From Brevibacterium casei CIP 102111 (GTDB lineage: Bacteria > Actinomycetota > Actinomycetes > Actinomycetales > Brevibacteriaceae), in NCBI RefSeq assembly GCF_900169275.1, contig NZ_FXZC01000001.1, positions 62,001-126,000 on the forward strand: a stretch of 64,000 bases of DNA. Direction: 5' to 3'. The notes under the pieces were generated by a model. It saw only the letters and a list, made by a program, of their open reading frames with translations, had not been told where the DNA came from and did not search any database. How positions within the stretch are numbered: the stretch's first letter is position 1; every line of letters begins with the position of its first letter. Below are positions 22,416 through 48,984 of this stretch, piece by piece. The translations under genes and the position numbers were made by a program.

Positions 22416-25400
22416 ATGGCTCGGTTCAGCTTCCTCGAGTGGCCGGTACTCCGGCAGTTCCGTTCGTCCGACCCCACTGGACGCGGCGAATCCGTCGTGT
22501 CCCCGCAGACGCGCAACACGGTGCCGCGGACGACGACGGCCGACAAGGTCGTCCAGTCGGTCTGCCCCTACTGCGCCGTCGGCTGCGGTCAGCGGATCTT
22601 CGTCAAGGACGACAAGGTCGTCGGCATCGAAGGCGACCCCGACTCGCCGATCTCCCGCGGACGCCTGTGTCCGAAGGGCTCGGCGAGCGAGCAGCTCGTC
22701 AACAACCCCTCCCGACAGACCGAAGTCCTCTACCGCGCCCCCAAGGGCAGGGACTGGCAGAAGCTCGACCTGAGCACCGCGATCGACATGATCGCCGACC
22801 GCTTCATCGACGCCCGCCGCAACCACTGGGAGGACGTCGACGACAAGGGCCACCCGCTGCGGCGGACGATGGGGATCGCCAGCCTCGGCGGGGCGACCAT
22901 CGACAACGAGGAGAACTACTTCGCGAAGAAGCTCTTCACCGCGGCCGGGGCGATCCAGATCGAGAACCAGGCCCGCATATGACACTCCGCCACGGTTCCC
23001 AGTCTGGGAACCTCGTTCGGGCGCGGCGGCGCCACTCAGCCCGTCCAGGACATGGCGAATGCCGACTGCATCGTCATCCAGGGCTCGAACATGGCCGAAT
23101 GCCATCCGGTGGGATACCAGTGGGTGACTGAGGCCAAGGCTCGGGGTGCACGGATCATCCACGTCGATCCGCGCTTCACCCGGACCACGGCGGTGGCCGA
23201 CAAGCACGTCCCGATCCGGGCCGGCTCGGACATCGTCCTCCTCGGTGCGCTCATCAACCGCGTCATCTCCGACGGGCTCTACTTCGAGGAGTACGTCCGC
23301 GCGTACACGAACGCGACGAACCTCATCAGCGACAACTACCTCGATCCCGAGGACCTCGACGGGCTCTTCTCCGGCTACGATCCGGCAACGAACTCGTACG
23401 ACAACTCGACGTGGGCCTACCAGACCGACGAGGCGGGCGTGGCCCTGCGCGACCCCAACCTCAAGGACCCGCGCAGCGTCTTCCAGATCCTCGCCCGCCA
23501 CTACTCGCGCTACACCCCTGAGATGGTCGCCGACAACTGCGGCATCTCGGAGGCCGACTTCGAGTATCTGCTCGAGTCGATCACGACGAACTCCGGACGC
23601 GACCGGACGACGTGCTTCGCCTACGCCGTCGGCTGGACCCAGCACTCGCTCGGCGCGCAGTTCATCCGCACCGCCTCGATCCTCCAGCTCCTGCTCGGCA
23701 ACATGGGCCGCCCGGGCGGCGGCATCATGGCGCTGCGAGGACACGCGACGATCCAGGGCTCGACGGACATCCCGACGCTGTTCAACCTCCTGCCCGGCTA
23801 CCTGCCGATGCCGAGCGCCGGGGTCCATGACACGTTCGACGACTACGTCGCCGCCGTCGGCACCCCGGAGACCCACAAGGGCTACTGGGCCAACGGACGC
23901 AGCTACGTCGTCAACCTGCTCAAGGCCTGGTGGGGCGATGCGGCGACACCGGAGAACAACTTCGCCTTCGACTACCTGCCGCGGATCAACGGCGCCCACG
24001 GGACCTACCAGACCCAGGTGCGCATGCTCAACGACGGCGTCGACGGCTACTTCATCCTCGGCCAGAACCCGGCCGTGGGATCGGCGAACGGGCGCATGCA
24101 GCGCATGGCGATGAGCCATCTCAAGTGGATGGTCGTGCGCGACTTCAGCCTCATCGAATCCGCCACGTGGTGGAAGGACGGCCCGGAGATCGCGACCGGG
24201 GAGCTGAAGACCGAGGACATCGACACCGAGGTGTTCTTCCTCCCCGCCGCCAACCACACCGAGAAGGCCGGGACGTTCACTCAGACCCAGCGCCTCGTCC
24301 AGTGGCGTCACAAGGCGGTCAATCCGCCGGGCGATGCGCAGAGCGAACTCGAGTTCTTCTTCGAACTCGGCAATCGCGTGCGGGAGAAGCTCAAGGACTC
24401 CGACGATCCGCGCGACCGGCCGCTCCTCGACCTCACGTGGGACTACCCCCTCGACGAGGACGGCGAGGTCGACGCCGAGGCCGTCCTCCGGGAGATCAAC
24501 GGCTACCATGTCAGCGGCGAGAAGGCCGGGCAGCCTCTCTCCGTCTACACCGAGATGACCGACGACGGCACCACCGCCGGGGGCTGCTGGATCTACGCGG
24601 GCATCTACAAGGACGGCGTCAATCAGGCCGCCAGGCGCAAACCGCGCACCGAACAGGACGAGATGGCCCTGGAGTGGGCGTGGGCGTGGCCGGCGAACCG
24701 GCGCATCCTCTACAACCGCGCCTCGGCAGACCCCGAGGGCAAGCCGTGGTCGGAGCGGAAGAAGCTCGTGTGGTGGGACGAGGAGAAGGGCCGCTGGGTC
24801 GGTGCCGACGAACCGGACTTCCCTCTCGAACGCGAGCCCTCAGCGCACTCCGACGTCCCCTTCGGCGGGCCCAGCCAACTCGACGGCGACGACCCGTTCA
24901 TCATGCAGGCCGATGGCAAGGGCTGGCTCTTCGCGCCCAGCGGCATGGTCGACGGTCCGCTGCCGACCCACTACGAACCGCAGGAGTCGGGGACGAGCAA
25001 CCCGCTCTACACCCAGCAGAACAACCCGCTGCGCAAGATCATGCGTCGCGAGGACAACCTGTCCGCGCCCGGCGCCGGCTTCCCCGGCTCCGAGGTCTAC
25101 CCCTACGTGTTCACGACCTACCGGCTCACCGAGCACCACACGGCCGGCGGCATGTCACGGTGGCTGTCCTACCTCTCCGAGCTCCAGCCGGAGATGTTCT
25201 GCGAGGTCTCACCGCAACTCGCCGAGGAACTCGGCCTCGAGCCGTACGGGTGGGCGACACTCGTCTCCCCACGCGGAGCGATCGAGGCCCGTGTCCTCAT
25301 CACCGAGCGGATGACGCCCCTGACCATCGGCGGACGCACCGTCCACCAGATCGGCCTGCCCTACCACTGGGGCGTCGGCGGCGACGGGGCGTGGGTCGAC

Positions 25401-26087
25401 GGCGATTCGGCCAACGACCTCCTCGGCGTGACGATGGACCCCAACGTCTTCATCCAGAACGGCAAGTACGTCGCGGGCACCGCGATGGCGGGCCGGCGAC
25501 CGCGCGGCCCCGAGCTCGTCGACTTCGTCGAGAAGTTCCAGCGTGAGGCGGGGCTGACCCCCGAATCGGGCAACGAACTCGTCACCGTGCCGCCGGAGGT
25601 CGTCGACGAGGCGGCCGCCGCGGGATCTCCGGCGACGACCGGCGGACACAACGAGCGTGGAGGCGACTCCGCGGTCGGCGTCACCCCCGGTCGCACGTAT
25701 GGTGCCGACGAGAGCGGAGACTCCGGCGGCGCCTCGGCGAAGGGGCACCGCGAGGTCACGGACTCCGGCGACTCGTCCGACGCCGTGGACGGCCAGGGCG
25801 GGGGCTCGGCCGGTTCGGATCGCCCGACATCGTCGGGAGGCACCGATGCGGTCGGCGGGTCCGAGGCTCAGGCGGGAAGCACCGACGACCAGCCGAAGAA
25901 GCGCGTCGACGCGAACTTCGCCGTCGACGGCGACCCGACCGACGGGGACCCGGACTTCGGCTACGACGCCGAGGGCCGACCGTACGAACCGGTCGATCCC
26001 GAGCAGCCGGCGAACGCCTGGGAGTACGAGAAGCGAGCACGCAGACGCGACGATGAGCGCGCTGAGGAGAAAGAGGAGGACGACTGA
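22416..26087 (+). CDS. fdhA: Selenocysteine-containing formate dehydrogenase, catalytic subunit (UGA read through)
   Basis: An in-frame TGA at 22980-22982 splits two open frames that together make one 1223-residue FdnG/FdoG-like protein. It has a [4Fe-4S] motif CPYCAVGCGQ near residue 50, GRLCPKGSASEQ, then NQARI-Sec-HSATVPSLGTSFGRG with Sec at 189, exactly where FDH-N/FDH-O have selenocysteine. GNAAEAHPVG-like GSNMAECHPVG follows, then DPRFTRTTAVADK, GWTQHSLGAQFIRT and GNMGRPGGGIMALRGH. It oxidises formate to CO2 at a Mo- or W-bis-MGD site. No twin-arginine signal is present. The last 170 residues or so are an acidic, disordered-looking tail. Its stop overlaps the next ATG (TGATG). Confidence 0.92.
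22980..23012 (+). promoter_or_regulatory. UGA selenocysteine codon and SECIS hairpin
   Basis: The UGA (22980-22982) is followed after eleven bases by a perfect 8-bp stem, GGTTCCCA (22994-23001) and TGGGAACC (23005-23012), with loop GTC. Spacing and loop resemble the E. coli fdhF SECIS, whose apical part contains a GGTCT loop. SelB (47137-48984) would bind it to bring Sec-tRNA to the ribosome. Confidence 0.85.
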
Positions 26088-32593: not shown

Positions 32594-33637
32594 TCAGCGG
32601 AGGTAGTCGGGCGTGTCCAGGGGACGGCGCTCGGGGTTGACGAGGACCCAGGCCACGCTCTGCTCGGTGAGCGTGTCGACAGCCTGCTCCGAGAGCCCGC
32701 CGCCCCGGACCTGGGCGAGTGCGGCATCGACGGCGCGCAGACCATCGTCCGAAAGCGGCACCCCGCTCCGCACATGCCGGGAGAATGCCGTCGCCATCGC
32801 CGCGAAGTCGCGATCCCAGTTCGCCCCGCCGTTGTCGAGGATCTCATGACCGATCCGACCGGCGATGCGGATGACCTCACCCTGCACACTCGCGGAGGGT
32901 CCGGAGCCCGGCACAAGGATCCCCCACAGTTCTGAGAACTGCTTCGTCCATCCCGAGGTAGTGACGGTGATCGCCTCGCCGTCGGCGAGCACGCGAGGGC
33001 GTGCAGGCAGGTCGATATCGAACATCTCAAGGAGATCTGTCATAGCGTCGACCGTCGCGATGCGAGCATTGCCGGCGGCCTGGTACCGGTACAGCGTCGT
33101 CATCGCCTTGCACAGATACGGGCGAGCGTCCTCGCTCAAAGTTCCGCCCCGGGAGGCGAGGAGCCGGACGACGGGCAGTCCTCGTTCGACCTTCGACGGT
33201 TCGCAGCGGATGGCGGCGAGATCGAGTGCCGTCCACCCGAGCGGATCCGTCTCGGTCAGGGTTGCCCCCCGCTCGAGGAGCAAGGCGACGACGTCGACGC
33301 GGTGGTTGGCCGCCGCAGCACACAGCGGCGTGTGCCTGCTTCCGGCTCTGATCGGGTCCGCCCCGCGCTTAATGAGCAGGTCGACGACCTCGAGATCGCC
33401 CGCCGCGGCTCGCGTGACCAGCGGCGACGCGTGGAACTGGTCCTCGGCCTCGATGTCGGCACCGTGGTCGAGCAGCCAGGTGACGCCCTCGGCGGTCACG
33501 GTGCTGTAGGCGAGAGCCGTCTGCTTGCGGTATCCGCCGGGGGCATCGAGCGGCCGAGACTCGAAGATCTCCTGCAGCTCGGTCGGGGAATACGCATCGC
33601 CGTATTCTCGGAAGTCCTTGGGCAGGGTCGTCGCCAT
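32594..33637 (-). CDS. Ankyrin-repeat protein
   Basis: The 347-residue cytoplasmic protein has about three to four ankyrin repeats between residues 38 and 160 (TAEGVTWLLDHGADIEAEDQ, DLEVVDLLIKRGADP, RVDVVALLLERGATLTETD, GWTALDLAA). A C-terminal region without recognised domain follows. Ankyrin repeats bind proteins; no enzymatic domain is visible. It starts 8 bases after selD, and its ribosome site AGGAG overlaps the selD stop, so the two are translationally coupled. Whether it serves selenium metabolism is unknown. Confidence 0.75.
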   Translation of the reverse strand: MATTLPKDFREYGDAYSPTELQEIFESRPLDAPGGYRKQTALAYSTVTAEGVTWLLDHGADIEAEDQFHASPLVTRAAAGDLEVVDLLIKRGADPIRAGSRHTPLCAAAANHRVDVVALLLERGATLTETDPLGWTALDLAAIRCEPSKVERGLPVVRLLASRGGTLSEDARPYLCKAMTTLYRYQAAGNARIATVDAMTDLLEMFDIDLPARPRVLADGEAITVTTSGWTKQFSELWGILVPGSGPSASVQGEVIRIAGRIGHEILDNGGANWDRDFAAMATAFSRHVRSGVPLSDDGLRAVDAALAQVRGGGLSEQAVDTLTEQSVAWVLVNPERRPLDTPDYLR

Positions 33638-33645
33638 CGTTCTCC

Positions 33646-34644
33646 TCAGCGGACGGTGATGCCCGACCCGGCGACGGTCTCGCCGATGACGGGATAGCCG
33701 GGCAGCTCGCCGACGACGAGGAGGCCGCCGGACGTCTGCGCATCGGCGAGGAGGAGGAGATCGTCCTCGGTGACGGTGTCGTCGGTCATCAGGTGCGGGC
33801 GCACCCAGTCGAGGTTGCGGCGGGTGCCGCCGGAGACGAATCCTGCCGCGATCGACTCATCGACCCCGCCGAGGCGGGGGACCTTTGCCGTGTCGATGAC
33901 CGCACCGACCCCCGAGGCCCGCCCCATCTTGAAGAGGTGGCCGAGGAGTCCGAAGCCGGTGACGTCGGTGGCCGCGCGGACGCCTGCGGCCACAGCCTCC
34001 CGGGACGCGGATGCGTTGAGTTCCGTCATCGTCGCGATCGCCTCGGGGAAGACCTCGCCGGTCTGCTTGTGCCGATTGTTGAGTATCCCGACGCCGATCG
34101 GCTTCGTCAGGGTGATCGGCAGTCCCGCCTCGGCGGCGTCGTTGCGCATGATCGCCTCGGGATGGGCGACCCCGGTGACGGCCATGCCGTACTTCGGCTC
34201 GGGGTCGTCGATCGAATGACCGCCGGCGACGGGGCAGTTCGCCTCGGCGGCGACGTCGAGGCCTCCGCGGAGCACCTCGGTGAGCAGCTCGAACGGCAGG
34301 ACCTCGCGCGGCCACCCGACGAGGTTGATCGCCGTGACCGGGGTCCCGCCCATCGCGTAGATGTCCGAGAGCGCGTTCGCCGCCGCGATCCGCCCCCAGT
34401 CGTAGGCATCGTCGACGACGGGGGTGAAGAAGTCGGCTGTGCTCAGCACTGCGAGGTCCTCGCGGATCCGCACCGCTGAGGCGTCATCGCCGTCGTCGAG
34501 ACCGACGATGACCTGCGGGTTCGTCTGCCCGGTGAGGCCGCGGACGGCGTCCTCGAGCTCGCCCGGGGGGATCTTGCACGCACAGCCGCCGCCGTGGGCG
34601 AAACCGGTGAGGCGGTACTCCGAGACGTCGATCGAGGTGTCCAT
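33646..34644 (-). CDS. selD: Selenophosphate synthase SelD
   Basis: The 332-residue protein makes selenophosphate from selenide and ATP, the selenium donor for Sec-tRNA. The active-site loop GGGCACKIPPGEL at residues 19-31 holds the essential cysteine and lysine; cysteine rather than Sec is encoded here. VGLDDGDDASAVRI, LSTADFFTPVVDD, GGHSIDDPEPKYG and TDVTGFGLLGHL are standard metal- and ATP-binding motifs. TAGGCT seven bases before the ATG suggests a leaderless promoter. The downstream ankyrin gene is coupled to it. Confidence 0.95.
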   Translation of the reverse strand: MDTSIDVSEYRLTGFAHGGGCACKIPPGELEDAVRGLTGQTNPQVIVGLDDGDDASAVRIREDLAVLSTADFFTPVVDDAYDWGRIAAANALSDIYAMGGTPVTAINLVGWPREVLPFELLTEVLRGGLDVAAEANCPVAGGHSIDDPEPKYGMAVTGVAHPEAIMRNDAAEAGLPITLTKPIGVGILNNRHKQTGEVFPEAIATMTELNASASREAVAAGVRAATDVTGFGLLGHLFKMGRASGVGAVIDTAKVPRLGGVDESIAAGFVSGGTRRNLDWVRPHLMTDDTVTEDDLLLLADAQTSGGLLVVGELPGYPVIGETVAGSGITVR

Positions 34645-34677: not shown

Positions 34678-36447
34678 TCATAGGGTCGGATCGGCGGCGT
34701 GATCGCGCTGGGACCCGGCGTCGGTACGGCCCTTGGGCACCGCCTCGGCGACGATCTTCCCGGGGTTGAGGTTGCGTCCGGGATCGGTGGCGCGGAAGAG
34801 GGAATCGACCATGAACGCGCCCGCCTCGGTGATGTCGTCGACGATCCACGGACGATGCTCGGTGCCGACCCCATGGTGGTGGGAGAGCCCTCCCCCGGAG
34901 TCGATGAACTCCTGCTGCACGGCCTCCTTGACCATTCGGTACTCCGCGAGCGCGGTGTCCTCCTCGGTGTAGGGGATCGCGAACGTGAAGTAGAGGCACG
35001 CGCCTCCGTGATAGCTGTGGGACATGTGGCAGAACATGAAGCCGGGGCCGCCCATCTCGGCGCGGACCTGGGCGAAGCGCTCATGCACGCGCGCATGCAT
35101 GTCCTTGAGGTTCGCCCAGCTCACCCCCGTCTCGCAGACGTCGCCGAAGACCCGGTAGTTGAGGAGGAAGTCGCGCAGGTAGGGCGTGTCGAACTTCTTC
35201 TGGTCGTAGATCGCGCCCGGCCCGGTGCCGAGGCTGATTCCGCCGCGACCTGCGACGATCTTCTTGACCGCGGTCTTCTCGCGTCCGACGTGCTCCTTCG
35301 AGCCCTCGAAGCAGACGTAGGACAGGCACATCCCCTCCGTCGTGTCCCAGCCGCGCGAGCGCAGATAGGCGAAGAGTGCGTCCTGACCGCGGGCGGTGAG
35401 CTTCGACTTCACCGTCGTCGGCTCCGAGACCATGGCGAGGCTGAACCGCGTCTCGGGTCCGTCGGAGAGCCGGGTGAACGTCGGGTTGGCCTCCGAGCGC
35501 GCGATGTCGTGCATCGCCTCGACCCCGGACGCCCAATCCGGGTAGAGGTAGGCGACGACCTCCCTCACCTCCGGCTTCCGGTGGATCCGGACCGTGCATT
35601 CGCTGATGACGCCGAGGCGGCCCTCACTGCCGAGGATCATCTCGTGGACCGAGGGGCCGGAGTCCCGGCCGGGGATCGGCTTGCTCACGACGACTCCGCG
35701 CGGGTGGACGACGCGCATCCCGCGCACGATGTCCTCGATGTCGCCGTACCTGTCCGACTGCATCCCGGACGACCGGGTCGCCGCCCACCCGCCGAGCGTC
35801 GAATAGCTGAACGAATCGGGGAAGTGCCCCATGGTCCACCCGCGGACGCCCAGCTGCTCCTCGAGGTCGGGTCCGTACGCGCCGGCTTCGACCCGCGCGA
35901 GGCCCGAGTACTCGTCGACCTCGAGGACGCGCCGCATCCGACCGAGGTTGAGCGACACGATGGGTCGCTCCTCGTCGGGGTCGGGGGTGACCGAACCGGA
36001 GATGCACGAGCCGCCCCCGTAGGGGATGAGGACGAGATCGTGGTCGAGGACCGCGGTGAGCACCTCGGCGATCTCCTCCTCGCTGCCGGGATGGACGACG
36101 ACATCGGTGAGACGGGGCATCGTCCCGTTCCGGACACGGTAGAGGTCGGGCAGGGAGCGCCCGAAGGAGTGGATGACCCGCAGCTCGTCGTCGACGCTGA
36201 CGTTCTCGGTCCCCACCGCCTCGGCGAGGACGGCGAGGCCATCCTCGCTCACCCGTGAGGCGGGAACGTCGAACCCGCCGAGGTCGGGGATGCGCGGGCG
36301 CGGGGCGTTCCACAGGTCGAGGCCGACCTTCTCCTTCGCGATCGCAGCGAAGGCGGGCTTCGTCTCCCAGCGGAACTCGACGCCGTCGGCGCCCCAGCCC
36401 CACCAGCGGTGTCGCCTGACCTCGTCGACGCTCAGCGGTGCGCTCAC
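34678..36447 (-). CDS. FAD-linked oxidase, alkyl-dihydroxyacetonephosphate synthase-like
   Basis: The 589-residue flavoprotein has the VAO-type FAD domain: LIPYGGGSCISGSV near residue 140, PDSFSYSTLGGWAATRSSGM near 215, YGDIEDIVRGM and GSEGRLGVISECTVRI near 280. The cap domain ends with CHMSHSYHGGACLYFTF and GGGLSHHHGVGTEHRPWI near 540. The SHHHGVG triad is the active-site motif of alkyl-DHAP synthase (AGPS), which swaps the acyl chain of acyl-DHAP for a fatty alcohol. GTG 36447 overlaps the acyltransferase stop by GTGA. The match to AGPS is strong by motif; activity is unproven. Confidence 0.85.
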   Translation of the reverse strand: MSAPLSVDEVRRHRWWGWGADGVEFRWETKPAFAAIAKEKVGLDLWNAPRPRIPDLGGFDVPASRVSEDGLAVLAEAVGTENVSVDDELRVIHSFGRSLPDLYRVRNGTMPRLTDVVVHPGSEEEIAEVLTAVLDHDLVLIPYGGGSCISGSVTPDPDEERPIVSLNLGRMRRVLEVDEYSGLARVEAGAYGPDLEEQLGVRGWTMGHFPDSFSYSTLGGWAATRSSGMQSDRYGDIEDIVRGMRVVHPRGVVVSKPIPGRDSGPSVHEMILGSEGRLGVISECTVRIHRKPEVREVVAYLYPDWASGVEAMHDIARSEANPTFTRLSDGPETRFSLAMVSEPTTVKSKLTARGQDALFAYLRSRGWDTTEGMCLSYVCFEGSKEHVGREKTAVKKIVAGRGGISLGTGPGAIYDQKKFDTPYLRDFLLNYRVFGDVCETGVSWANLKDMHARVHERFAQVRAEMGGPGFMFCHMSHSYHGGACLYFTFAIPYTEEDTALAEYRMVKEAVQQEFIDSGGGLSHHHGVGTEHRPWIVDDITEAGAFMVDSLFRATDPGRNLNPGKIVAEAVPKGRTDAGSQRDHAADPTL

Positions 36448-37382
36448 GTCCTCGTCCCTTCGTCGGTGGTGTGATCTGTGGTGCCCGGTCTGTCGGCTGT
36501 GGCCTGCTTCTCTGCCGCGCCCTGCTTGTCGGGCTGCGGGGCACGGTCGGTGCGCCCGGATTCGTCGCCAGGGACACGTCGGTGGGTGAGTCGGGCGAGG
36601 CCGAGTTCGTCGGCCCCGGCGTCGAAGAGCTCCTCGACCCGGCACTGGACCCGCGCCGTCAGCGCCGGCAGCGACTCCCCGGGCTGGGCGACGACGGGGG
36701 CGCCGACGATGACGCGCACCGGTCGGCGGCCGGGCACCGGCCAGCTCGTGCCCTTCGGCATCGCCTCCGAACCGCCGACGACGGCCGTCGGGACGATGGG
36801 CGCGCCGGTGTCGACGGCGAGTTTGATCGCCCCCACCTTGAAGTCGGCGACGAACCCGTTCTGCTGACGCCCGCCCTCGGGGAAGAGGAGCACGGGCACA
36901 CCTGAGCGCAGCAGGGCGCGGGGCGTCTCGGAGCTGCCGTGGGAGCCCTCCCGGTAGACGGGGAAGGCGTTGAAGAGGAGTCGGACGAACATCCGCTTGT
37001 GCCACGCTGTGAAGAAGTAGTCATAGGCGACCCCGGCGGCGAGCAGACGCGCCTGTCCTCGCGGCAGGCTCTGCGCGATGAGCGGCGCGTCGAGGTGCGA
37101 GGTGTGGTTGGCGACGACGAGGAACCCACCGCGCAGGCCGCGCACCTCGGGATCGATCCGTGCCGAGGGGGTGATCGTCGAGCGGACGAGACCGCGAAAG
37201 AGGACGCGCTGGAGGACGAAGCGCAGCGCCGCGCGCGCCCGGGAGCGGTACATCGCCGTGGACGGGGCGTGCGGAGGTGGGGGTGCTGCGTCCCGCGACG
37301 GCGGGGTCGTCGGCACCTCGGTCGGTGCCGCCGCCGGCACGACTGCGGGCGACTGACCCTGGGGTGTTCTCTCTGCTCTCAT
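36444..37382 (-). CDS. 1-acyl-glycerol-3-phosphate/DHAP acyltransferase family protein (PlsC-like)
   Basis: The protein has the acyltransferase motif VVANHTSHLDAP (NHx4D), FNAFPVYREGS, LLFPEGGRQQNG and a further PTAVVGGSEAMPKG block. It transfers acyl chains to glycerol phosphate, lysophosphatidate or DHAP. I use ATG 37382 (MRAERTPQGQS), which leaves a Pro-rich N-terminal tail of about 40 residues. ATG 37253 (MYRSRAR) is an alternative, and neither has a good ribosome site. The C-terminal 50 residues are charged and low-complexity. It is coupled to the AGPS-like gene by GTGA. Confidence 0.8.
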   Translation of the reverse strand: MRAERTPQGQSPAVVPAAAPTEVPTTPPSRDAAPPPPHAPSTAMYRSRARAALRFVLQRVLFRGLVRSTITPSARIDPEVRGLRGGFLVVANHTSHLDAPLIAQSLPRGQARLLAAGVAYDYFFTAWHKRMFVRLLFNAFPVYREGSHGSSETPRALLRSGVPVLLFPEGGRQQNGFVADFKVGAIKLAVDTGAPIVPTAVVGGSEAMPKGTSWPVPGRRPVRVIVGAPVVAQPGESLPALTARVQCRVEELFDAGADELGLARLTHRRVPGDESGRTDRAPQPDKQGAAEKQATADRPGTTDHTTDEGTRT

Positions 37383-37542
37383 CGCCCGGGGTTCGGAGCC
37401 GACCCCAGAACCGGATGCCGCCTCGGCGAGGAAATTCTCCCCGTCCCTCGTACGGTGCCCCACGCGCGGACGAAGCCGCTCGCGCGGATGGCGCACGTCG
37501 TGCGAGCGAAGCCCCACGTACGCACGGTCGTGGGGCTCGCGT

Positions 37543-38340
37543 TCAGGCACCACGGCGGTCTCTCTCCTCGTTCCGGCGGGAGGTGAGAGCACTCGAGAGT
37601 CGGTGGATCGCCGACCGGGGGGCGATCCGGAGGCCTGCGACGATGGCCTTCCAGCGCAGCTGCGGTACGCTCACGGTCCGACCCCTGGCGACGTCGCGCA
37701 GGCACTCCTCGACGAGGTCGTCGGGGTCGAGCCAGAGGACATCGGGGATCGAGGTCCCGGCGATGCCGGCGCGGGCATGGAACTCGGTGCGCACCCAGCC
37801 GGGCACGAGCGCCGTCACGGTCACCCCGGTGCCGGCGGTCTCGACAGCGAGCGACTCCGAGTAGTTGAGCGCCCAGGCCTTGATCGCGGTGTAGTTGTTC
37901 TGGGTCAGGCCCGAGCTCACCGAGCACACGGTGATGATCCACCCGCGTCCGCGCTTGGTCATCGCCCGGGCCGCGGCACCGCCGATGACGAGCACCGCCC
38001 GCTGCATCACCTCGAAGCCGCGGTCATGCTCCTCGAGGTCCGTGGCGAGCAGGCTCGCCCGCACGGAGAACCCGGCGTTGTTGACGACGACGTCGATGGG
38101 CCGGTCCGACCCGGGGTCCTCGATGCGCGCGGCGACCCGCGTCTGGTCGTCACGGTCGGCGAGGTCGGCGATGAGCGTCTCGACCTCGATCCCGAAGGCC
38201 GAGCGCAGGTCGGCCGCGAAGGTCTCGAGCCTGCCCTCATCGCGGGCGACGAGGACGAGTCCGAGGCCGCGAGAGGCGAAGGCACGGGCGAACGCGGCAC
38301 CGATGCCCGCGGTGCCTCCCGTGATCAGAGCGACATGCAT
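37543..38340 (-). CDS. Short-chain dehydrogenase/reductase
   Basis: The 265-residue classical SDR has TGGTAGIGAAFA (residues 8-19), NNAGFSVRAS near 90 and the catalytic set with SVSSG near 142 and YTAIK near 153. A keto-reduction such as acyl- or alkyl-DHAP to the glycerol phosphate would fit the neighbouring genes, but I cannot prove it. The minus-strand TATCGT seven bases before ATG 38340 suggests a leaderless promoter. It is divergent from the acyl-CoA reductase gene across 130 bases. Confidence 0.82.
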   Translation of the reverse strand: MHVALITGGTAGIGAAFARAFASRGLGLVLVARDEGRLETFAADLRSAFGIEVETLIADLADRDDQTRVAARIEDPGSDRPIDVVVNNAGFSVRASLLATDLEEHDRGFEVMQRAVLVIGGAAARAMTKRGRGWIITVCSVSSGLTQNNYTAIKAWALNYSESLAVETAGTGVTVTALVPGWVRTEFHARAGIAGTSIPDVLWLDPDDLVEECLRDVARGRTVSVPQLRWKAIVAGLRIAPRSAIHRLSSALTSRRNEERDRRGA

Positions 38341-38347
38341 GCTTGTT

Positions 38348-38353
38348 ACGATA
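38348..38353 (-). promoter_or_regulatory. -10 box of a leaderless promoter for the SDR gene
   Basis: On the minus strand TATCGT lies seven bases before ATG 38340 in a locally A/T-rich patch (38341-38370). Confidence 0.45.
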
Positions 38354-38470
38354 CAGTGACCTGCGTCATACTCCGCGATGACCTTGAGGGTGACCGCACC
38401 ACCCATCCGATTCCCCGCCGGCTCCGAATGAGCATCCGAGACCGTTTCCGCGCGACCCGATAGGCAGCAC

Positions 38471-40687
38471 ATGACATCCAGCCGCATTCTCCTGACCGGC
38501 GTGACGGGATTCCTCGGTCAGGCGGTGCTCCAGGCCCTGCTCGAGAGCAGGCCGGACGTCACCATCACCGCTCTCGTGCGTCCCCGGGGCACCCGGTCGG
38601 GCAGGCAGCGCCTCGAACGGCTGCTCACGAAACCGGTCTTCGCCACCTGGATCGGACGGGCCGGTGAGGCCGCCGTGCGGGATGCTCTCACGGCGCGTGT
38701 CGAGGTCCTCGAGGGTGACCTCACCGACCTGCCGCCGCTGCCGCACGCCTTCGACGTCGTCATCCACTCCGCGTCGTCGGTGTCCTTCGACGCCCCCATC
38801 GACGAGGCGTTCCGCACCAACGTCACCGGAGTCGAGCGCCTCTACCGGGCCCTGCGCGAGACCGGGCAGGACCCGCACGTCATCCACGTCTCGACGGCGT
38901 ACGTCGGCGGCATCTCCAAGGGCCTCGCCCAGGAGCGTCGGCTCAGCCACAACGTCGACCACCGCGCCGAGTCCGCGGCCGCCGAACTCGCCCGCGACCG
39001 GGTCGAAGCCGAATCCCGTGCTCCCGAACAGCTGCGCCGCTTCCTCCGCAGCGCCCGCGCCCAGAGTTCCCGGATGGGACCCAAGGCCGTCGCCGCGTCC
39101 GCCGAGGCGGCGCGGGAGGCCTTCGTCGCCGACCGCCTCGTCGAGTTCGGCCGCACCCGCGCCGAATCCCTCGGCTGGACCGACGTCTACACGTTGACGA
39201 AGGCGATGGCCGAACGCGTCGCCGAAGCCGAATGGGCCGACCAGGGCCACCGGGTCTCCTTCGTCCGGCCCTCGATCATCGAATCCGCGCTCCGCCTGCC
39301 CCACCCCGGCTGGATCGACGGCTTCAAAGTCGCCGACCCGCTCATCATGGCCTATGCGAACGGCGGGCTGACCGAGTTCCCCGGCCATGCCGACTCCGTC
39401 CTCGACATCATCCCCGTCGACTTCGTCGTCAACGTCATCCTCGCGCTCGCCGCAGAGGACGAATCCACCGCCGCCGAGGCGGGGGCCCGGTACTTCCATG
39501 TCGTGTCCGGCACGTCGAATCCCCTGCCGTTCCACCAGATGGTGAGCACGGTGCGCGAGTACTTCCTCGACCGCCCGATCCCCGACCCCGAGGGCGAACC
39601 GACCCCGGTTCCCGAATGGAGCTTCCCGAGTTCCGAGCTCATCGAACAGCGCATCCGCCTCAAGGAACTGGGCTCACGTCTCGGGCGGGCCGTCGTCGAC
39701 CGGCTGCCGTCGTCCCGGCGCACCCGCGGGTGGGTCTCGCATCTGAGCCGCGTCGATGCGGGGCTGCGGTCTCTGCGCCAGTTCGCCGACCTCTACCGGC
39801 AGTACACGAAGACCGAGATGGTCTTCGACGACGCGGCCACCCGCCGACTCCACGAACGACTGCCCGCGGACACTGCGCCCGAGCGGGGGTTCGACGTCAC
39901 CGACATCGAGTGGGACCGGTACTTCAAGGACATCCACCTGCCCGCCATCACCGAACTCACCCGCACCTACGCCCGCAACCGGGCGCGCACGAGGCAGGAC
40001 CGCACCACCTCGGCGGGGCTGCTGCCTGCCGGCGATGCGCTCGCCGTGTTCGACCTCGACGGCACGGTGATCTCGACGAACATCGTCCGGCAGTATGCGG
40101 CTGTCGTCCGCGCCACCCAGCCTCCCCACCGCTGGCCGGGAGCGCTCGCCGGCATCGCCGGGATCGTCCCCGGGCTCCTGCGCGCCGAATCCCGTGACCG
40201 CTCCGAGCTCATCCGCATGGTCAACCGGCGCTACCGGGGCTTCCGCCTCGACGAGCTGCGCGCGGTCATCGCGGGCAGCCTCGGGGAGCGGATCCGCGAC
40301 TCGATCCGCCCGCAGGCCCGCACCCTCATCGACGAGCACCGCGCAGCCGGACACCGCACCGTGCTCGTCACCGGTGCTCTCGAAGTCCTCGTCGAACCGC
40401 TCGCCGACCTCTTCGACGAGGTCGTCGCCACCCGCATGGACGTCACCTCGGACGGCGTGCTCTCCGGGTACCTCGCGACTCCGCCGCTCGTCGACGAAGC
40501 CCGCGCGAACTGGCTGCGGAAGTACGCGAGCGGCGTCGGCGCCGACCTCGCGAAGTCGACCGGCTACGGCGATTCGCTCGCCGATGCCGCGTGGCTCGAG
40601 CTCGTCGGCGAGCCGATCGCCGTCACCCCCGACCTCGGCCTCTACGGACATGCCCTGAAGAAGCGATGGAAGGTGCTCGAATGGTGA
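38471..40687 (+). CDS. Fatty acyl-CoA reductase fused to HAD-IB phosphatase-like domain
   Basis: The 738-residue protein starts with an extended-SDR acyl reductase: LLTGVTGFLGQAVL at residues 7-20, VIHSASSVSF near 97, VSTAYVGG near 140, active-site YTLTK near 240 and FVRPSIIESAL near 262. A sterile-domain-like stretch follows. From about residue 520 a HAD domain begins with AVFDLDGTVIST (DxDGT) and ends with GYGDSLADAAWLE. Acyl-CoA reductases make fatty aldehyde or alcohol; HAD fusions of this kind occur in actinobacteria and myxobacteria. It overlaps the next gene by seven bases and starts an operon with two ferritin-like genes. Confidence 0.83.
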   Translation: MTSSRILLTGVTGFLGQAVLQALLESRPDVTITALVRPRGTRSGRQRLERLLTKPVFATWIGRAGEAAVRDALTARVEVLEGDLTDLPPLPHAFDVVIHSASSVSFDAPIDEAFRTNVTGVERLYRALRETGQDPHVIHVSTAYVGGISKGLAQERRLSHNVDHRAESAAAELARDRVEAESRAPEQLRRFLRSARAQSSRMGPKAVAASAEAAREAFVADRLVEFGRTRAESLGWTDVYTLTKAMAERVAEAEWADQGHRVSFVRPSIIESALRLPHPGWIDGFKVADPLIMAYANGGLTEFPGHADSVLDIIPVDFVVNVILALAAEDESTAAEAGARYFHVVSGTSNPLPFHQMVSTVREYFLDRPIPDPEGEPTPVPEWSFPSSELIEQRIRLKELGSRLGRAVVDRLPSSRRTRGWVSHLSRVDAGLRSLRQFADLYRQYTKTEMVFDDAATRRLHERLPADTAPERGFDVTDIEWDRYFKDIHLPAITELTRTYARNRARTRQDRTTSAGLLPAGDALAVFDLDGTVISTNIVRQYAAVVRATQPPHRWPGALAGIAGIVPGLLRAESRDRSELIRMVNRRYRGFRLDELRAVIAGSLGERIRDSIRPQARTLIDEHRAAGHRTVLVTGALEVLVEPLADLFDEVVATRMDVTSDGVLSGYLATPPLVDEARANWLRKYASGVGADLAKSTGYGDSLADAAWLELVGEPIAVTPDLGLYGHALKKRWKVLEW

Positions 40688-41685
40688 TGCAGGGAAGCCG
40701 GAGTGCGGTCGACGTCGAGCATCCGCCGGGTCACGTCGACGGACGCCTGTTCTCCGACGCGGACCATCCGACGGTCCTCGTCACCGACTTCGACGTCCCC
40801 GGCTACCTCGAGCAGGCGCGGGGTCGCATCCCCGTCGACCGTGAGCGCATCGATCTGCCCGCCGAGGCGGCCCGTGACCTGGGATTCCTCTGGCGCTTGG
40901 AGAACTCTGCGCTCGCCGAGACCCGGGCGCTGCTGGCCTCATGGACGGCGAACGAAGCCCGGATCACCGCCTTCGTCACCGCGTGGGGATATGAGCGATA
41001 CTGGCTGGCCAAAGCGCTGCGGGACGTCCTCGATGCCGGTGGCGCGACCGGATCCCCCGCGCCCTCGCGGGTGCCGTCGACCAGGCTGCGCGAGGTCTGG
41101 GTCGAGCGTGCGCTGCCGATCGTCGCTCCCATCGTCGGGGGCGTCGTCAGGGAGCCCGTCACCGCCGGCCACATGGCCCGGCTCGCCGTCCAGGAGGGCG
41201 CCCTCCAGGTCGCGGAGGCCGCCCTGCTTCCGCGGCTGAACGGGGAGGCCCGCCGTGTCCTCGCTGAGGTGGTCGAGCGTCGCGAGGAGATCGTGCGGTT
41301 CTTCCGCACCGAGGCGATCGCCCGCATCACCCGGTCCCGGCGCGAAGCCGTCCTCGCCCGGATCCACCTCGGCTGGCCCTGGGCGCCGCTGCGCGTCGTC
41401 GGTGTGCCCGAGCCCGACGAGGCGGCGGCACTCGCGAGCCTCTTCGCCGAGGGCTCCGACCGGCGGGCGCTCACCGCCTCCGATGCGGTGATCGGGCAGC
41501 AGCTCGCCGGGAACCCTCAGCCGTCGGCGGACGAGGTCCGGGCGGCGCTGCGCACCGCGCGCCGACGGCAGGGTAGTCCAGGCCGACGGAGGGTGACCAA
41601 GGACGGACGGCCCGGCACCGCGGGCAGTCGCCTGCGGCCCAACCGCAGCCGACCGGTTCGAGACAGGAGTGAGAATGGCCTTTGA
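40681..41685 (+). CDS. Ferritin-like paralogue lacking most metal ligands
   Basis: I do not recognise this 334-residue protein as a named family, but it aligns by eye with its downstream neighbour. FVTAWGYERYWLAKALRDVL matches FMTMWNREEFWHGEALAAVL, and the second helix pair also aligns. Of the six expected ferritin-like ligands, the equivalents of E77, H80, E171 and H174 are R, L, R and I here, while the two single glutamates (about E74 and E172) remain. It probably cannot hold a di-iron site and may be a partner subunit. GGAAGG seven bases before ATG 40681 fixes the start. The C-terminal 60 residues are Arg-rich. Confidence 0.6.
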   Translation: MVMQGSRSAVDVEHPPGHVDGRLFSDADHPTVLVTDFDVPGYLEQARGRIPVDRERIDLPAEAARDLGFLWRLENSALAETRALLASWTANEARITAFVTAWGYERYWLAKALRDVLDAGGATGSPAPSRVPSTRLREVWVERALPIVAPIVGGVVREPVTAGHMARLAVQEGALQVAEAALLPRLNGEARRVLAEVVERREEIVRFFRTEAIARITRSRREAVLARIHLGWPWAPLRVVGVPEPDEAAALASLFAEGSDRRALTASDAVIGQQLAGNPQPSADEVRAALRTARRRQGSPGRRRVTKDGRPGTAGSRLRPNRSRPVRDRSENGL

Positions 41686-42460
41686 CTTCGACACCTATGC
41701 CGAGACGTCCGAGGCGGTGAAATGGTCGGACCTCGACTTCGACGTCTTCGACGCGATGCCGTTGGATGCGGACACGCTGCGCACGGTCCGCTACATGTGC
41801 GACGTCGAGTACCACACGACGTGCTTCGTCCGGGAGCTCCTCGTCACCCCCTCGCACCGGGAGGACGCGCCGGCGGCGTTCATGACGATGTGGAACCGGG
41901 AGGAGTTCTGGCACGGCGAGGCGCTCGCCGCGGTGCTGAAGAAGCACGGCATCCACGTCGACTACGACGAGATCAAGGCGAAGCGGGCGGGACTGGGCTG
42001 GAAGCTCGCCCTCGGTCCGGCGAAGCAGTCGCTGCTGTCGAACATGGTCGGCTCCGACTTCATCGCCGTCCACATGGCATGGGGCGCAGCCAACGAGCTC
42101 TCGGCCACCGCAGGCTACCGTCGGATGGCGGCGATGCAGGACCACCCGGTGCTCTCGCCGCTGCTCGAGCGCATCGCCAAGCAGGAGACCCGCCACGTCG
42201 CGTTCTATTCGACGCAGGCGAAGGAACGGCTCGAGGACAACCCGCGCGCGCAGAGGATCGTGCGACTGGCGCTCGGGAGGCTGTGGAAGCCGGTGGGCTC
42301 GGGGATGATGGACGACGCCGAGGTCAAGCACGTGATGACCCACCTCTTCCGGAACCAGACCGCTGAACTCGACAAGCTCGACAAACGCGTGCAGAAGCTG
42401 CCCGGTCTCGGGGACCTGACGATCTTCCGCAGCGCCTTCGCCCGCCTCGGCATCGACTGA
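41675..42460 (+). CDS. Ferritin-like di-iron protein
   Basis: The 261-residue protein has the four-helix di-iron pattern: E45 (CDVEYHTTC), E77xxH80 (EEFWHGEAL), E141 (AANELSATAG) and E171xxH174 (KQETRHVAFYS). Spacings of 32, 64 and 30 residues fit ferritin-like oxygenases and desaturases. A reaction on a fatty chain, aldehyde or ether lipid is suggested by the reductase gene at the start of the operon. AGGAG lies six bases before ATG 41675, and the gene overlaps the preceding one by eleven bases. Confidence 0.75.
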   Translation: MAFDFDTYAETSEAVKWSDLDFDVFDAMPLDADTLRTVRYMCDVEYHTTCFVRELLVTPSHREDAPAAFMTMWNREEFWHGEALAAVLKKHGIHVDYDEIKAKRAGLGWKLALGPAKQSLLSNMVGSDFIAVHMAWGAANELSATAGYRRMAAMQDHPVLSPLLERIAKQETRHVAFYSTQAKERLEDNPRAQRIVRLALGRLWKPVGSGMMDDAEVKHVMTHLFRNQTAELDKLDKRVQKLPGLGDLTIFRSAFARLGID

Positions 42461-45505: not shown

Positions 45506-45601
45506 GGAGGCGTCTGGCGTCCTGGTGGGCCCCCCGGTCTTCAAAACCGGTGAGACCGAGCATCTCGGTCTGGCGGGTTCGATTCCCGTCCGCCTCCGCC
45601 A
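45506..45601 (+). tRNA. selC: tRNA-Sec (anticodon UCA)
   Basis: This 96-base gene folds as a selenocysteine tRNA. The acceptor stem is GGAGGCG (45506-45512) with CGCCTCC (45591-45597), discriminator G and an encoded CCA. The anticodon stem CCGGT/ACCGG has loop CTTCAAA with anticodon TCA at 45541-45543, and the long variable arm is GAGACCGAG/CTCGGTCT-like. The T arm holds GGGTTCGATTCCC. The total length and UCA anticodon are diagnostic. It decodes the UGA at 22980 and lies just before selA. Confidence 0.95.
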
Positions 45602-45676
45602 CAGACATCGCCGGTAAGGATGCTTGCCGGAACGGGACGTGAGCGTGTGCGCGTCGGCACAGAGGAGGAGGCAGCC

Positions 45677-47137
45677 ATGGTCGAGGCCGACCCCCGCCGG
45701 AGCATTCCGCGCACCGATCATCTCCTCGCCCTGCCCGAGGTCGCCGCCGCCCGCGACCGCCTCGGCGAGGCGACGATCCGTGCCCTCATCGCCGACGCCC
45801 AGGACTCCGCCCGGTCAGGGAAGCTTCCCGTCGCCGAGGTGACCCCCACCGTCATCGCGGCCGTGACCACGCGTTCGGCCTCATCGCTCACCCCCGTGCT
45901 CAACGCGACCGGGATCATCGTCCACACGAACCTCGGTCGCGCACCGCTCTCACCTGCGGCGCAGCAGGCCGTCAGCGATGCAGCCGGCTATGTCGACGTC
46001 GAGATGGACCTCGAATCCGGCAAGCGGAGCAAGCGCGGCGTCGGGGCGAAGGCGGCGCTGCTGCGCGCCTGCCCCGCCGCCGAGGACGCGCTCGTCGTCA
46101 ACAACGGCGCCGCCGCCCTGCTCCTCGCCGTGACAGCGCTGCGGGGCAGTGGGGACGCTGCGGATTCGACCTCGCCGGGCCGGTCCGGTCCGGGAACCAC
46201 CGTCCCGGATGAGATCGTCGTCAGCCGCGGGGAGCTCGTCGAGATCGGGGCCGGCTTCCGTCTGCCCGACCTCATGGTCACCACCGGCGCTCGCCTCCGT
46301 GAGGTCGGCACGACGAATCGGACCCACCTGGCCGACTATGCCGCGGCCGTCGGCCCGGCGACCGCGAGCCTGCTCAAGGTCCACACGAGCAACTTCCGCG
46401 TCGACGGCTTCACCGCCGAGGCGACCCTGTCGCAGCTGCGCGGCCTCGCCGACGAGCACAAGCTCCCTCTCATCGCCGACCTCGGCAGCGGGCTCCTCAC
46501 CCCCGACCCGGTTCTGCCGAACGAACCCGACATCGACACCGCCCTCCGGGACGGGGCCGACGTCGTCATCGTCTCCGGCGACAAACTCCTCGGCGGACCG
46601 CAGGCCGGCCTCATCCTCGGCCGGACCGAGGCCGTCGAGCGGATCGCGAGGCACCCGCTCGCCCGCGCGATGCGCACCGACAAGCTCACGCTTGCGGCGA
46701 TCGAGGCGACGATCTCAGGAGCCTCGAACCCCGTTCACGACGCCCTCCACCTCGACCCGGTCGACCTGCGCAGACGCACGGAACGACTCGCCGAGGCGGT
46801 CGGCGGAACCGTCGTTCCTCATGACGGTCGCGTCGGCGGCGGGGGTGCTCCCGGCGTCCCCTTACCCGGGTGGGCGCTCGAGCTTCCCGAGGACTTCGCC
46901 GAACCGCTGCGCCTCGGCGATCCGGCCGTCGTCGCCCGCGTCCACCAGGGCGTGTGCCTCGTCGACCTCCGCAGCGTTCCCGAAACCTCCGACGATGCGC
47001 TCGCCGATGCGATCCGGGCGGCCGCCGAGCGCCTCGGCGGGACCGGCGCAGCGGCTGACCGCGGTCAGGGCGGACCCGGCATCACGGAAACCGCGACGCA
47101 GACGGCCGCGAACGACCGCCTCGGCGAGGGCACCTGA
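45677..47137 (+). CDS. selA: L-seryl-tRNA(Sec) selenium transferase SelA
   Basis: The 486-residue PLP enzyme converts Ser-tRNA(Sec) to Sec-tRNA(Sec) with selenophosphate from SelD. It has VLNATGIIVHTNLGRAPLS near residue 74, VNNGAAALLL near 139, HTSNFRVDGFT near 237 and the PLP lysine in VSGDKLLGGPQAGLI (about K303). GGAGGAGG upstream fixes ATG 45677. A Ser/Gly-rich insert near residues 158-175 (SGDAADSTSPGRSGPG) is longer than usual. Its stop overlaps the selB start (TGATG). Confidence 0.96.
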   Translation: MVEADPRRSIPRTDHLLALPEVAAARDRLGEATIRALIADAQDSARSGKLPVAEVTPTVIAAVTTRSASSLTPVLNATGIIVHTNLGRAPLSPAAQQAVSDAAGYVDVEMDLESGKRSKRGVGAKAALLRACPAAEDALVVNNGAAALLLAVTALRGSGDAADSTSPGRSGPGTTVPDEIVVSRGELVEIGAGFRLPDLMVTTGARLREVGTTNRTHLADYAAAVGPATASLLKVHTSNFRVDGFTAEATLSQLRGLADEHKLPLIADLGSGLLTPDPVLPNEPDIDTALRDGADVVIVSGDKLLGGPQAGLILGRTEAVERIARHPLARAMRTDKLTLAAIEATISGASNPVHDALHLDPVDLRRRTERLAEAVGGTVVPHDGRVGGGGAPGVPLPGWALELPEDFAEPLRLGDPAVVARVHQGVCLVDLRSVPETSDDALADAIRAAAERLGGTGAAADRGQGGPGITETATQTAANDRLGEGT

Positions 47138-48984
47138 TGTTCGTCGTCGCGACGGCCGGGCACGTCGATCATGGGAAGTCGACCCTGGTCAAAGCCCTGA
47201 CCGGGATGGAACCGGACCGGTGGGCCGAAGAGCGCAGGCGCGGGCTGACGATCGATCTCGGGTTCGCGTGGACGACGCTGCCCTCGGGTCGGGAGCTCGC
47301 GTTCGTCGACGTCCCCGGGCACGAGCGGTTCCTCGCGAACATGCTCGCCGGGGTCGGTCCGGCGCCGATCGTCTGCTTCGTCATCGCCGCGGACAAGGGC
47401 TGGCAGGCGCAGTCGAGCGATCATCGGGACGCGATCGCAGCCCTCGGGATCGACCGGGGGCTCATCGTCGTCACCCGCGCCGACCTCGCGCCGGACACCG
47501 TCACGGAGACGGAAGCCCAGGTGAGGGCCGAGCTGCGGGGGACGACGCTCGCCGATGCGCCGATCGTCACGGTCTCGGCGACGACGGGGCAGGGCATGGA
47601 CGAACTCATCGCCCGCCTCGACGAGGTCACCGCCGCCACCCCCGCTCCGGACGCGGACGCGCGCGTGCGGCTGTGGATCGACCGGGCGTTCTCGATCACC
47701 GGGGCGGGCACCGTCGTCACCGGCACGCTCACCGCGGGAACCCTGCGCGCAGGCGACCGGGTGCGCGTCGTCGGCGAGTCCGTCGACCTCGTCACCGGGA
47801 TCCGCGGGATGCAGAGCAGGGAATCCTCCGCCGAGGTCGTCACCCCCGCCGCGCGCGTCGCCGTCAACGTCCGCGACGTCCCCGTCGACGACATCCACCG
47901 AGGTGACGCCCTCATCACGCCCGATGCGTGGCCGATCGTCGAGGTGCTCGACGTGCGCCGGACGATGGGGGAGGCGCTCGCCGACGGCGTCCACGAGCTC
48001 ATGCTCCACATCGGCACCGCCGCCGTGCCCGTGCGCCTGCGCCCCTTCGACGCCGAGCATGCCAGGCTCACCCTCGAGCGACCGCTGCCGCTGCAACTCG
48101 GCGACCGCATGGTGCTGCGCAACCCCGGCAGCCGCAACGTCTTCGCCGGCGTCGTCGTCCTCGACGTCGACCCGCCTGAGCTGGGACGACGCGGCGACGG
48201 GGCGCGGCGGGCCGCTGCGTTGGCATCGCGGCCGGTGACCGGGGACGTCCTCGCCGAGGTGGCTCGGCGCGGAGCCGTCGAACGCGCGGTCCTCGTGCGG
48301 TTCGGCCTGACGGTGCCCGAGACGCTGCCCTCCGATGTCGAGGCGCTGGGTGCCTGGCTCGTGCACGCTCCGACACTCCAGGCGTGGGTGACGGCGGCCA
48401 AGGAAGTGGTGGCGAAGCAGCTCGCCGCACAGCCGATGGCCCCGGGCGTGCCGGTCAAAGCCGTCGTCGGGGCCCTGCGTCGGGTCGATCCGCCGCTGCC
48501 GAGTGCTGGGGCGCAGCCGGCCGCGTCCCCAGGCAGCGGAACCGGGATCGGCGCGCTCGTCGCCGAGGTGATCCGACGGGCCGGTCTCGAGGCGGCCGAC
48601 GGCGTGGTCCGCCCACCCGGTCACCGCGCGGATCTCGGCCCTGCGGAGGCGGGTGTCGCCGAGGTCGAACAACGTCTCAAGGCCAATCCCTTCGATGCGC
48701 CCGAGGCCGATGATCTGCGGGCGCTTCGCCTGGGAGCGCGGGAGCTCGCGGTCGCCGAGAAGGCGGGGAGGGTGCTGCGCCTCGGCGACGGTGTCGTCGT
48801 CTCCCCGCGGACCCCGGCGCAGGCGATGCGACTGCTCGCGGGACTCGATCAGCCGTTCACGACGAGTCAGGCCAGGCAGGCGCTGGGGACGACGCGGCGC
48901 GTCGTCATCCCGCTGCTCGAGCACCTCGACTCCCGCGGGTGGACGAGGCGGCTCGACGGTTCGCATCGCGAGGTCGTGCGGTAG
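47137..48984 (+). CDS. selB: Selenocysteine-specific elongation factor SelB
   Basis: The 615-residue GTPase carries Sec-tRNA to the ribosome and binds the SECIS hairpin. The G domain has GHVDHGKSTLVKAL (residues 7-20), the DVPGHERFLANMLAG switch near 60 and VVTRADLAP near 109. Elongation-factor domains II-III follow (GAGTVVTGTLTAGTLR near 188). Winged helices occupy the C-terminal 240 residues, ending in the basic RGWTRRLDGSHREVVR. It is coupled to selA by one base. Confidence 0.96.
   Translation: MFVVATAGHVDHGKSTLVKALTGMEPDRWAEERRRGLTIDLGFAWTTLPSGRELAFVDVPGHERFLANMLAGVGPAPIVCFVIAADKGWQAQSSDHRDAIAALGIDRGLIVVTRADLAPDTVTETEAQVRAELRGTTLADAPIVTVSATTGQGMDELIARLDEVTAATPAPDADARVRLWIDRAFSITGAGTVVTGTLTAGTLRAGDRVRVVGESVDLVTGIRGMQSRESSAEVVTPAARVAVNVRDVPVDDIHRGDALITPDAWPIVEVLDVRRTMGEALADGVHELMLHIGTAAVPVRLRPFDAEHARLTLERPLPLQLGDRMVLRNPGSRNVFAGVVVLDVDPPELGRRGDGARRAAALASRPVTGDVLAEVARRGAVERAVLVRFGLTVPETLPSDVEALGAWLVHAPTLQAWVTAAKEVVAKQLAAQPMAPGVPVKAVVGALRRVDPPLPSAGAQPAASPGSGTGIGALVAEVIRRAGLEAADGVVRPPGHRADLGPAEAGVAEVEQRLKANPFDAPEADDLRALRLGARELAVAEKAGRVLRLGDGVVVSPRTPAQAMRLLAGLDQPFTTSQARQALGTTRRVVIPLLEHLDSRGWTRRLDGSHREVVR

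Follow-up and report, generated by a model that had tools for sequence, protein, structure and literature searches.

Genetic organization of the cluster

A stretch of 64,000 nucleotides from the 3.84 Mb genome of Brevibacterium casei CIP 102111 (contig NZ_FXZC01000001.1, positions 62,001-126,000; hereafter the window) carries, at 34678-42460, six genes that form a candidate cluster for ether-lipid synthesis. The genes are arranged in two divergent units that meet near 38.4 kb, with an AGPS-like flavoenzyme, a PlsC-type acyltransferase and a short-chain dehydrogenase/reductase (SDR) encoded on the minus strand, and a fatty acyl-CoA reductase (FAR) fused to a HAD domain, followed by two ferritin-like proteins (fer1 and fer2), on the plus strand. 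All six genes and their divergent layout had been described in a first-pass annotation of the window, and each is confirmed here by Pfam matches (from a scan of ten window proteins), motifs and structure models. Because this gene set is found grouped again elsewhere in Brevibacterium and in further families, with its order changed, the association extends beyond chance.

The AGPS-like flavoenzyme

The candidate alkyl-dihydroxyacetone phosphate (alkyl-DHAP) synthase (589 residues; 34678-36447, minus strand) is built from FAD_binding_4 and FAD-oxidase_C domains and harbors the motif SHHHGVG. Translation probably initiates at the GTG at 36447 rather than at 37005, giving a protein that begins VSAPLSVDEVRRHRWWGWG, and relatives align from that point. 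The nearest named proteins belong to Brevibacterium (79-82% identity; 86% for B. sp. W7.2 and 88% for XM4083). When compared with all PDB sequences, the two best matches, 2uuu (354 bits, E = 1.3e-104) and 4bby (310 bits, E = 2.8e-91), the AGPS enzymes of Dictyostelium and guinea pig, cover most of the window protein and stand far above the next family at 72 bits. Residues R419, R515, Y578 and H615-617 of the guinea-pig enzyme, its catalytic residues, align in the PDB alignments with R326, R425, Y486 and H523-525 of the window protein; the 4bca chain deviates at Y578 in the same set. These window residues are invariant across 18 clade members. Seven loci encoding GlcD-like paralogues read E/E/H/GEH at the corresponding positions, one of them D/S/H/GEH. 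Against the GlcD model the window protein scores 114 bits, with a cut-off of 567.9, and it has SHHHGVG in place of a GEH-type site. Both the PDB ranking and the active-site residues argue against a lactate- or glycolate-type oxidase, the alternative assignment raised in the first-pass annotation.

The reductase fusion, acyltransferase and dehydrogenase

The fusion protein (738 residues; 38471-40687, plus strand) joins a fatty acyl-CoA reductase (NAD_binding_4, PF07993) to a HAD-IB phosphatase-like domain (PF12710, with TIGR01490 over its cut-off), and residues 5-494 align with the fatty acyl-CoA reductase structure 7eoz (E = 4.8e-43). Across 74 aligned rows, comprising the window sequence and 73 open reading frames from a simple caller applied to 80 loci, the FAR glycines, Tyr and Lys and the nucleophilic Asp of the HAD domain are invariant. 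The HAD acid residue is variable (D in 37 rows, E in 22, Q in 10 and H in 5), and the phosphatase activity may therefore vary.

The candidate DHAP acyltransferase (36444-37253, minus strand; PF01553) has an uncertain start that could lie as far upstream as 37382, with relatives aligning from about residue 38-45 when numbered from 37382. It contains HX4D and FPEG motifs, the former in 42/42 rows, and its sole PDB match is a 1-acyl-glycerol-3-phosphate acyltransferase. The SDR, a candidate acyl/alkyl-DHAP reductase (37543-38340, minus strand, start uncertain and up to 38406; PF00106, adh_short), retains the Tyr and Lys of YxxxK in 55/55 rows, matches 509 assorted reductases in the PDB, and has as its best NCBIfam model a mycolate reductase (143.8 against a cut-off of 380). 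We infer the substrates of PlsC, SDR and HAD from context alone.

Co-occurrence and synteny

To survey the order we scored a few top candidates in each of 297 genomes, with thresholds of at least 51% identity for the AGPS clade, E 1e-60 for FAR and E 1e-25 for fer2. The AGPS clade was detected in 62 genomes, FAR in 71 and fer2 in 42; at E 1e-60 an AGPS match exists in 82 genomes, of which these 62 were used and 20 with identities of at most 38% were left out. Genomic co-occurrence, which the first-pass annotation had proposed as a check, is pronounced, with FAR present in all 62 AGPS-clade genomes and encoded within 15 kb of AGPS in 46 of them. In the contrast set formed by the 20 omitted genomes, whose AGPS-like match is weaker, FAR occurs in 2. 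Nine genomes have FAR without the AGPS clade, always as a divergent form (at most 47% identity), and two of these hold a weaker AGPS-like match. Tallied by hand, 16 genera have both genes, none has AGPS alone, five have FAR alone and 73 have neither. The distribution of fer2 is looser: it occurs in 37 of the 62 AGPS genomes, lies within 15 kb of FAR in 17/39, and is found in five genomes outside the AGPS clade, three of which also lack FAR.

Among 39 close genomes, including that of the window, a high-identity AGPS is present in seven (G000, G006, G020, G021, G034, G036 and G037), accompanied by FAR in all seven and by fer2 in six. One further genome (G028) has FAR and fer2 without a high-identity AGPS, and in a Brachybacterium (G034) the fer pair is located elsewhere on the chromosome.

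Loci of named relatives were drawn as the best 80 of at least 426 confirmed, several with flanks that end at contig ends, and derive from Brevibacterium, Brachybacterium, Dermabacter, Helcobacillus, Kocuria, Jiangella, Georgenia, Occultella, Ruania, Subtercola, Labedella, Streptomyces, Propionibacteriaceae and others. In the flanking DNA retrieved for these best 80 loci, 79 encode an SDR, 75 PlsC and 74 FAR; 70 have the complete set of four core genes, in divergent as well as co-directional arrangements, and 22 have a fer gene. No FAR was found in the full flanks of three loci (L122, L124 and L126). One locus titled Kocuria sp. 36 (L055) holds a Brevibacterium-like cluster (AGPS 78%, fer2 88%) as opposed to the 52-56% of other Kocuria AGPS sequences, a possible mislabel or transfer.

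Subtercola displays the most regular architecture, as all 12 genomes of the genus, S. vilae and S. lobariae included, encode AGPS and a linked cluster with both fer genes, the pair bracketing FAR; S. boreus is probably among the 12. These clusters (12/12; L123:1765-4028) also contain, in the interval from FAR to fer2, an extra 511-residue protein with a Lar_N domain and a second PlsC.

A ferritin-like pair

The two downstream genes, fer1 (40687-41685, plus strand, start within 40666-40687) and fer2 (41675-42460, plus strand), both yield helical models. The fer2 model adopts an acyl-ACP-desaturase fold by structure comparison, and all six of its di-iron ligands (four Glu and two His) are invariant in 27 sequences. 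At the sequence level the likeness is faint, with a weak FA_desaturase_2 match (PF03405; E = 1.3e-4, 21.4 bits, below the 22.7 cut-off) and a weak match to DesA2 in the PDB search (E = 0.011), where two unrelated helical proteins ranked higher. Fer1 has no Pfam match, an AlphaFold2 model with a pLDDT of 81, and weak Foldseek matches (best E = 3.4e-2), and the di-iron ligands are not retained in 20 homologues. As modelled, fer2 is a protein with a complete di-iron site in an acyl-ACP-desaturase fold, a candidate plasmanyl (vinyl-ether) or chain desaturase, and fer1 is its degenerate partner. The possible di-iron desaturase of the first-pass annotation is supported for fer2 at the level of ligands and fold. 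Outside the cluster, a fer1/fer2 pair sits beside unrelated genes in three genomes of one genus (loci L154, L155 and L156) in which AGPS and FAR are absent at E 1e-60.

Lipids of relatives and known vinyl-ether enzymes

Dimethylacetals (DMA) are the usual signature of vinyl-ether lipids, or plasmalogens. For S. vilae, Table 2 of PMC5945732 gives i-16:0 DMA at 17.0%, a-15:0 DMA at 3.2% and a-17:0 DMA at 1.9%, and for S. frigoramans, S. boreus and S. lobariae 6.9-13.3% i-16:0 DMA and 9.7-11.0% a-15:0 DMA; by our own sums from that table, DMA account for about 21-29% of peak area in the four species. The available part of the same paper gives at most 4% DMA for Agreia and none for Frondihabitans. 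The S. endophyticus paper, in the part available, reports DMA for no Subtercola and 2-OH-14:0 in four of five strains. Kineococcus rubinsiae, according to the accessible portion of its description, contains 2.9% a-15:0 DMA by gas chromatography-mass spectrometry (GC-MS) as well as anteiso-C15:1, and the peak that the MIDI system called 2-OH-14:0 was a-15:0 DMA by GC-MS. This misassignment means that the 2-OH-14:0 peaks of Subtercola may be DMA too. More widely, the C14:0 2-OH that MIDI assigns in actinobacteria (in the parts seen of PMC7472656 and PMC9287328) may equal anteiso-15:0 DMA, and plasmalogens are perhaps commoner in aerobes than recorded. The open-access literature yielded no ether-lipid data for Brachybacterium, and the accessible part of PMC10878007 does not mention DMA.

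Enzymes known to form vinyl ethers were also sought. The CarF/PEDS1 family (PF10520) was over its cut-off in 0 of the 297 order genomes and not found in the window's own, in a search that did not cover Subtercola by name and that was also negative in 14 controls, so that its sensitivity is unproven; the single sub-threshold match comprises 39 residues with stops. The PlsA-type domain PF09989 was found in 2 of 25 genomes, Propioniciclava tarda and Nigerium, each time within an open frame of 1453 residues; of 14 controls, 4 also gave a hit. It was absent from the other 23, among them the window's genome, three Subtercola, Labedella and five genomes of the K. radiotolerans family (four of the genus). 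DMA are known from P. tarda. Its PF09989 frame and that of Nigerium fit the statement, in the part seen of a review, that plsA/plsR occur in some Actinobacteria (PMC9702350). Both P. tarda (G313, L172) and Nigerium (G314, L171) combine an AGPS-SDR-FAR cluster with the PlsA-type frame, possibly providing two ether-lipid routes per cell.

A predicted ether-lipid pathway

The core of the cluster probably encodes an aerobic ether-lipid pathway of the DHAP type, as in animals, a prediction from sequence for which the lipid support comes from relatives. Its steps are all assigned from homology and context. PlsC would acylate DHAP at C1, the FAR half of the fusion would yield a fatty alcohol by reducing an activated fatty acid, and the AGPS-like flavoenzyme would replace the acyl chain with this alcohol to give alkyl-DHAP. 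The SDR would then reduce alkyl-DHAP to alkyl-glycerol-3-phosphate, and the HAD half may strip a phosphate from a pathway intermediate, the weakest of the core steps. Fer2, together with the non-catalytic-looking fer1, could act on the product as a di-iron desaturase that depends on oxygen, with a 1'-2' vinyl-ether bond as the leading guess. A candidate for each core step had been put forward in the first-pass annotation, and the protein families, conserved catalytic residues and co-occurrence bear this out, the PlsC and SDR steps being drawn from context.

Several observations weigh against this assignment. DMA also form from free fatty aldehyde. A second AGPS-like group in other Brevibacterium, at about 34-37% identity, retains the catalytic residues at 8/8 loci (L031-L038), and another paralogue, a single G014 gene recorded as L019 and L039, retains all but R425. 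PlsC and SDR have the appearance of generic family members, and four Propionibacteriaceae-type loci with AGPS, SDR and FAR (L081, L082, L088 and L101) showed no PlsC homologue. The Fisher tests of AGPS-FAR co-occurrence (P = 1e-54 for genomes and 4e-14 for genera) ignore phylogeny. S. endophyticus probably carries the cluster, which is discordant with its profile, as given in the part of its description available, of neither DMA nor 2-OH-14:0. Finally, loss of the AGPS homologue in Myxococcus xanthus lowers ether lipids slightly, and ElbD matters more (PMC9131029, in the part seen).

We rejected the AGPS residues as sole proof of function, because paralogues of 37% identity retain the same residues. 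That second group is distinct in its surroundings, as no FAR lies nearby, and the two loci inspected by eye adjoin GlpD-like and diacylglycerol-kinase-like genes.

Alternative interpretations

The role of the fer pair is the most finely balanced part of the interpretation. Since DMA-bearing Subtercola have the pair inside the cluster and no known vinyl-ether enzyme turned up (CarF family in the order genomes, PlsA marker in three Subtercola and the window's genome), we tentatively propose, at somewhat less than even odds, that fer1 and fer2 provide a third, independent vinyl-ether route, a soluble heteromeric di-iron enzyme of the acyl-ACP-desaturase fold that serves a complete aerobic AGPS pathway of actinobacteria. 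Desaturation elsewhere on the chain is about equally possible. In the corresponding alternative, which has a chance approaching one half, the core makes saturated alkyl ethers, fer1 and fer2 introduce double bonds at another position of acyl or alkyl chains, and the DMA of Subtercola and Kineococcus come from another desaturase or from aldehydes. This alternative accommodates the distribution outside Subtercola, as K. rubinsiae has DMA, yet fer2 is missing at E 1e-25 from the 11 genomes of its genus, that of K. radiotolerans, that encode AGPS and FAR. Nine genomes of the genus searched with a fer2 profile gave no match in five and distant matches in four (E = 7.7e-5 to 9.0e-7), and of 12 genomes in the family with AGPS the only one with fer2 (G086) belongs to another genus. 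K. radiotolerans itself (G071) has AGPS, an unlinked FAR with PlsC beside it, and neither fer2 nor PF09989. Either another enzyme forms the bond in Kineococcus or the DMA there derive from an aldehyde, and if the DMA of K. rubinsiae are vinyl ethers, the pair is rejected as a universal vinyl desaturase. The absence of fer2 from 25 of the 62 AGPS genomes, the three genomes (G044, G077 and G254) that have the pair but neither AGPS nor FAR at E 1e-60, and the limited CarF search likewise count against a vinyl-ether role. A chain desaturase would also suit a fold nearest to the acyl-ACP desaturases, which act within chains, and the anteiso-C15:1 noted in the portion seen of the K. rubinsiae description. 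In favor of the vinyl-ether role, the two fer genes flank FAR within the cluster in 12/12 Subtercola genomes, the PlsA marker is absent from all three Subtercola searched, and the CarF family is over cut-off in 0/297 order genomes, a search that did not cover Subtercola by name.

It is improbable that the product of the cluster is instead a fatty aldehyde, an alcohol or a wax ester, with the AGPS-like protein acting as a 2-hydroxy-acid oxidase and DMA arising from free or bound aldehydes. A FAR can stop at the aldehyde, and any fatty aldehyde gives DMA in acid methanol, but the AGPS catalytic residues set against the GlcD pattern, the linkage of PlsC (75/80) and SDR (79/80) in the best 80 loci, and the lack of a wax-ester synthase family among the ten scanned window proteins all speak against this reading. 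Least credible is an origin of the relatives' DMA in the anaerobic, reductive PlsA/PlsR route, unrelated to the cluster, for although plsA/plsR are reported in some Actinobacteria (PMC9702350, in the part seen) and PF09989 occurs in P. tarda and Nigerium, the domain is absent from 23/25 genomes, including three Subtercola, in a search that was positive in P. tarda and 4/14 controls.

Neighboring selenocysteine genes

A full selenocysteine system (SelD, tRNA-Sec, SelA and SelB) and a formate dehydrogenase are distributed over 22416-26087, 33646-34644 and 45506-48984 of the window, with SelA, SelB and the dehydrogenase named by eye; the formate dehydrogenase has an in-frame TGA at 22980-22982. 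SelD adjoins AGPS, and on its other side lies an ankyrin-repeat protein (32594-33637). Selenocysteine or formate dehydrogenase genes are present in the flanks of 3 of the best 80 loci (L050, L051 and L054, all Brevibacterium), and none were seen in those of B. oceani (L052, whose contig ends beside fer2) or CCUG 69071 (L053). A functional tie to the ether-lipid cluster was rejected on this count.

Comparison with known systems and significance

Compared with the animal peroxisomal pathway (GNPAT, AGPS, FAR1 and PexRAP/DHRS7B), the window has a candidate for each step and shares AGPS similarity and catalytic residues. It differs in its generic PlsC and SDR, its FAR-HAD fusion, the clustering of its genes and its ferritin-like proteins, and the PEDS1 family was not found. 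In M. xanthus, as described in the part seen of PMC9131029, the elb and MXAN_1676-1674 operons similarly combine AGPS, FAR, an acyltransferase, a dehydrogenase and the HAD protein ElbB, there in two operons. However, its multidomain ElbD (acyl-CoA synthetase and acyl carrier protein) is dominant and its AGPS homologue minor, and its vinyl bond is formed by CarF, the family not found over cut-off in the 297 genomes of the window's order. Fer2 shares its fold with plant-type soluble acyl-ACP desaturases and mycobacterial DesA2, but at 12-17% identity and under the Pfam cut-off, and at most of the loci examined it is accompanied by a degenerate partner. PlsA/PlsR would be expected to leave the same DMA signature, but the proteins are unrelated and the marker is absent from the window's genome and three Subtercola.

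The logic of the pathway is known; what is new is its occurrence in a group to which the searched open-access literature assigns no such genes, together with the candidate desaturase. Aerobic myxobacteria are called a striking exception among aerobes for plasmalogens in the part seen of a review (PMC9131029), and the cluster is a candidate genetic basis for the DMA lipids of the aerobic Subtercola and Kineococcus. Ether lipids are likewise predicted in other carriers, namely Brevibacterium, Brachybacterium, Dermabacter and Kocuria. The fer pair is a concrete candidate for what would, if true, be a new class of vinyl-ether desaturase beside the membrane-bound CarF/PEDS1 and the reductive PlsA/PlsR. 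The cluster is relevant, too, to the evolutionary history of the AGPS pathway that animals share, and because carriers among its relatives show the plasmalogen signature, the origin of such lipids in aerobic bacteria becomes testable.

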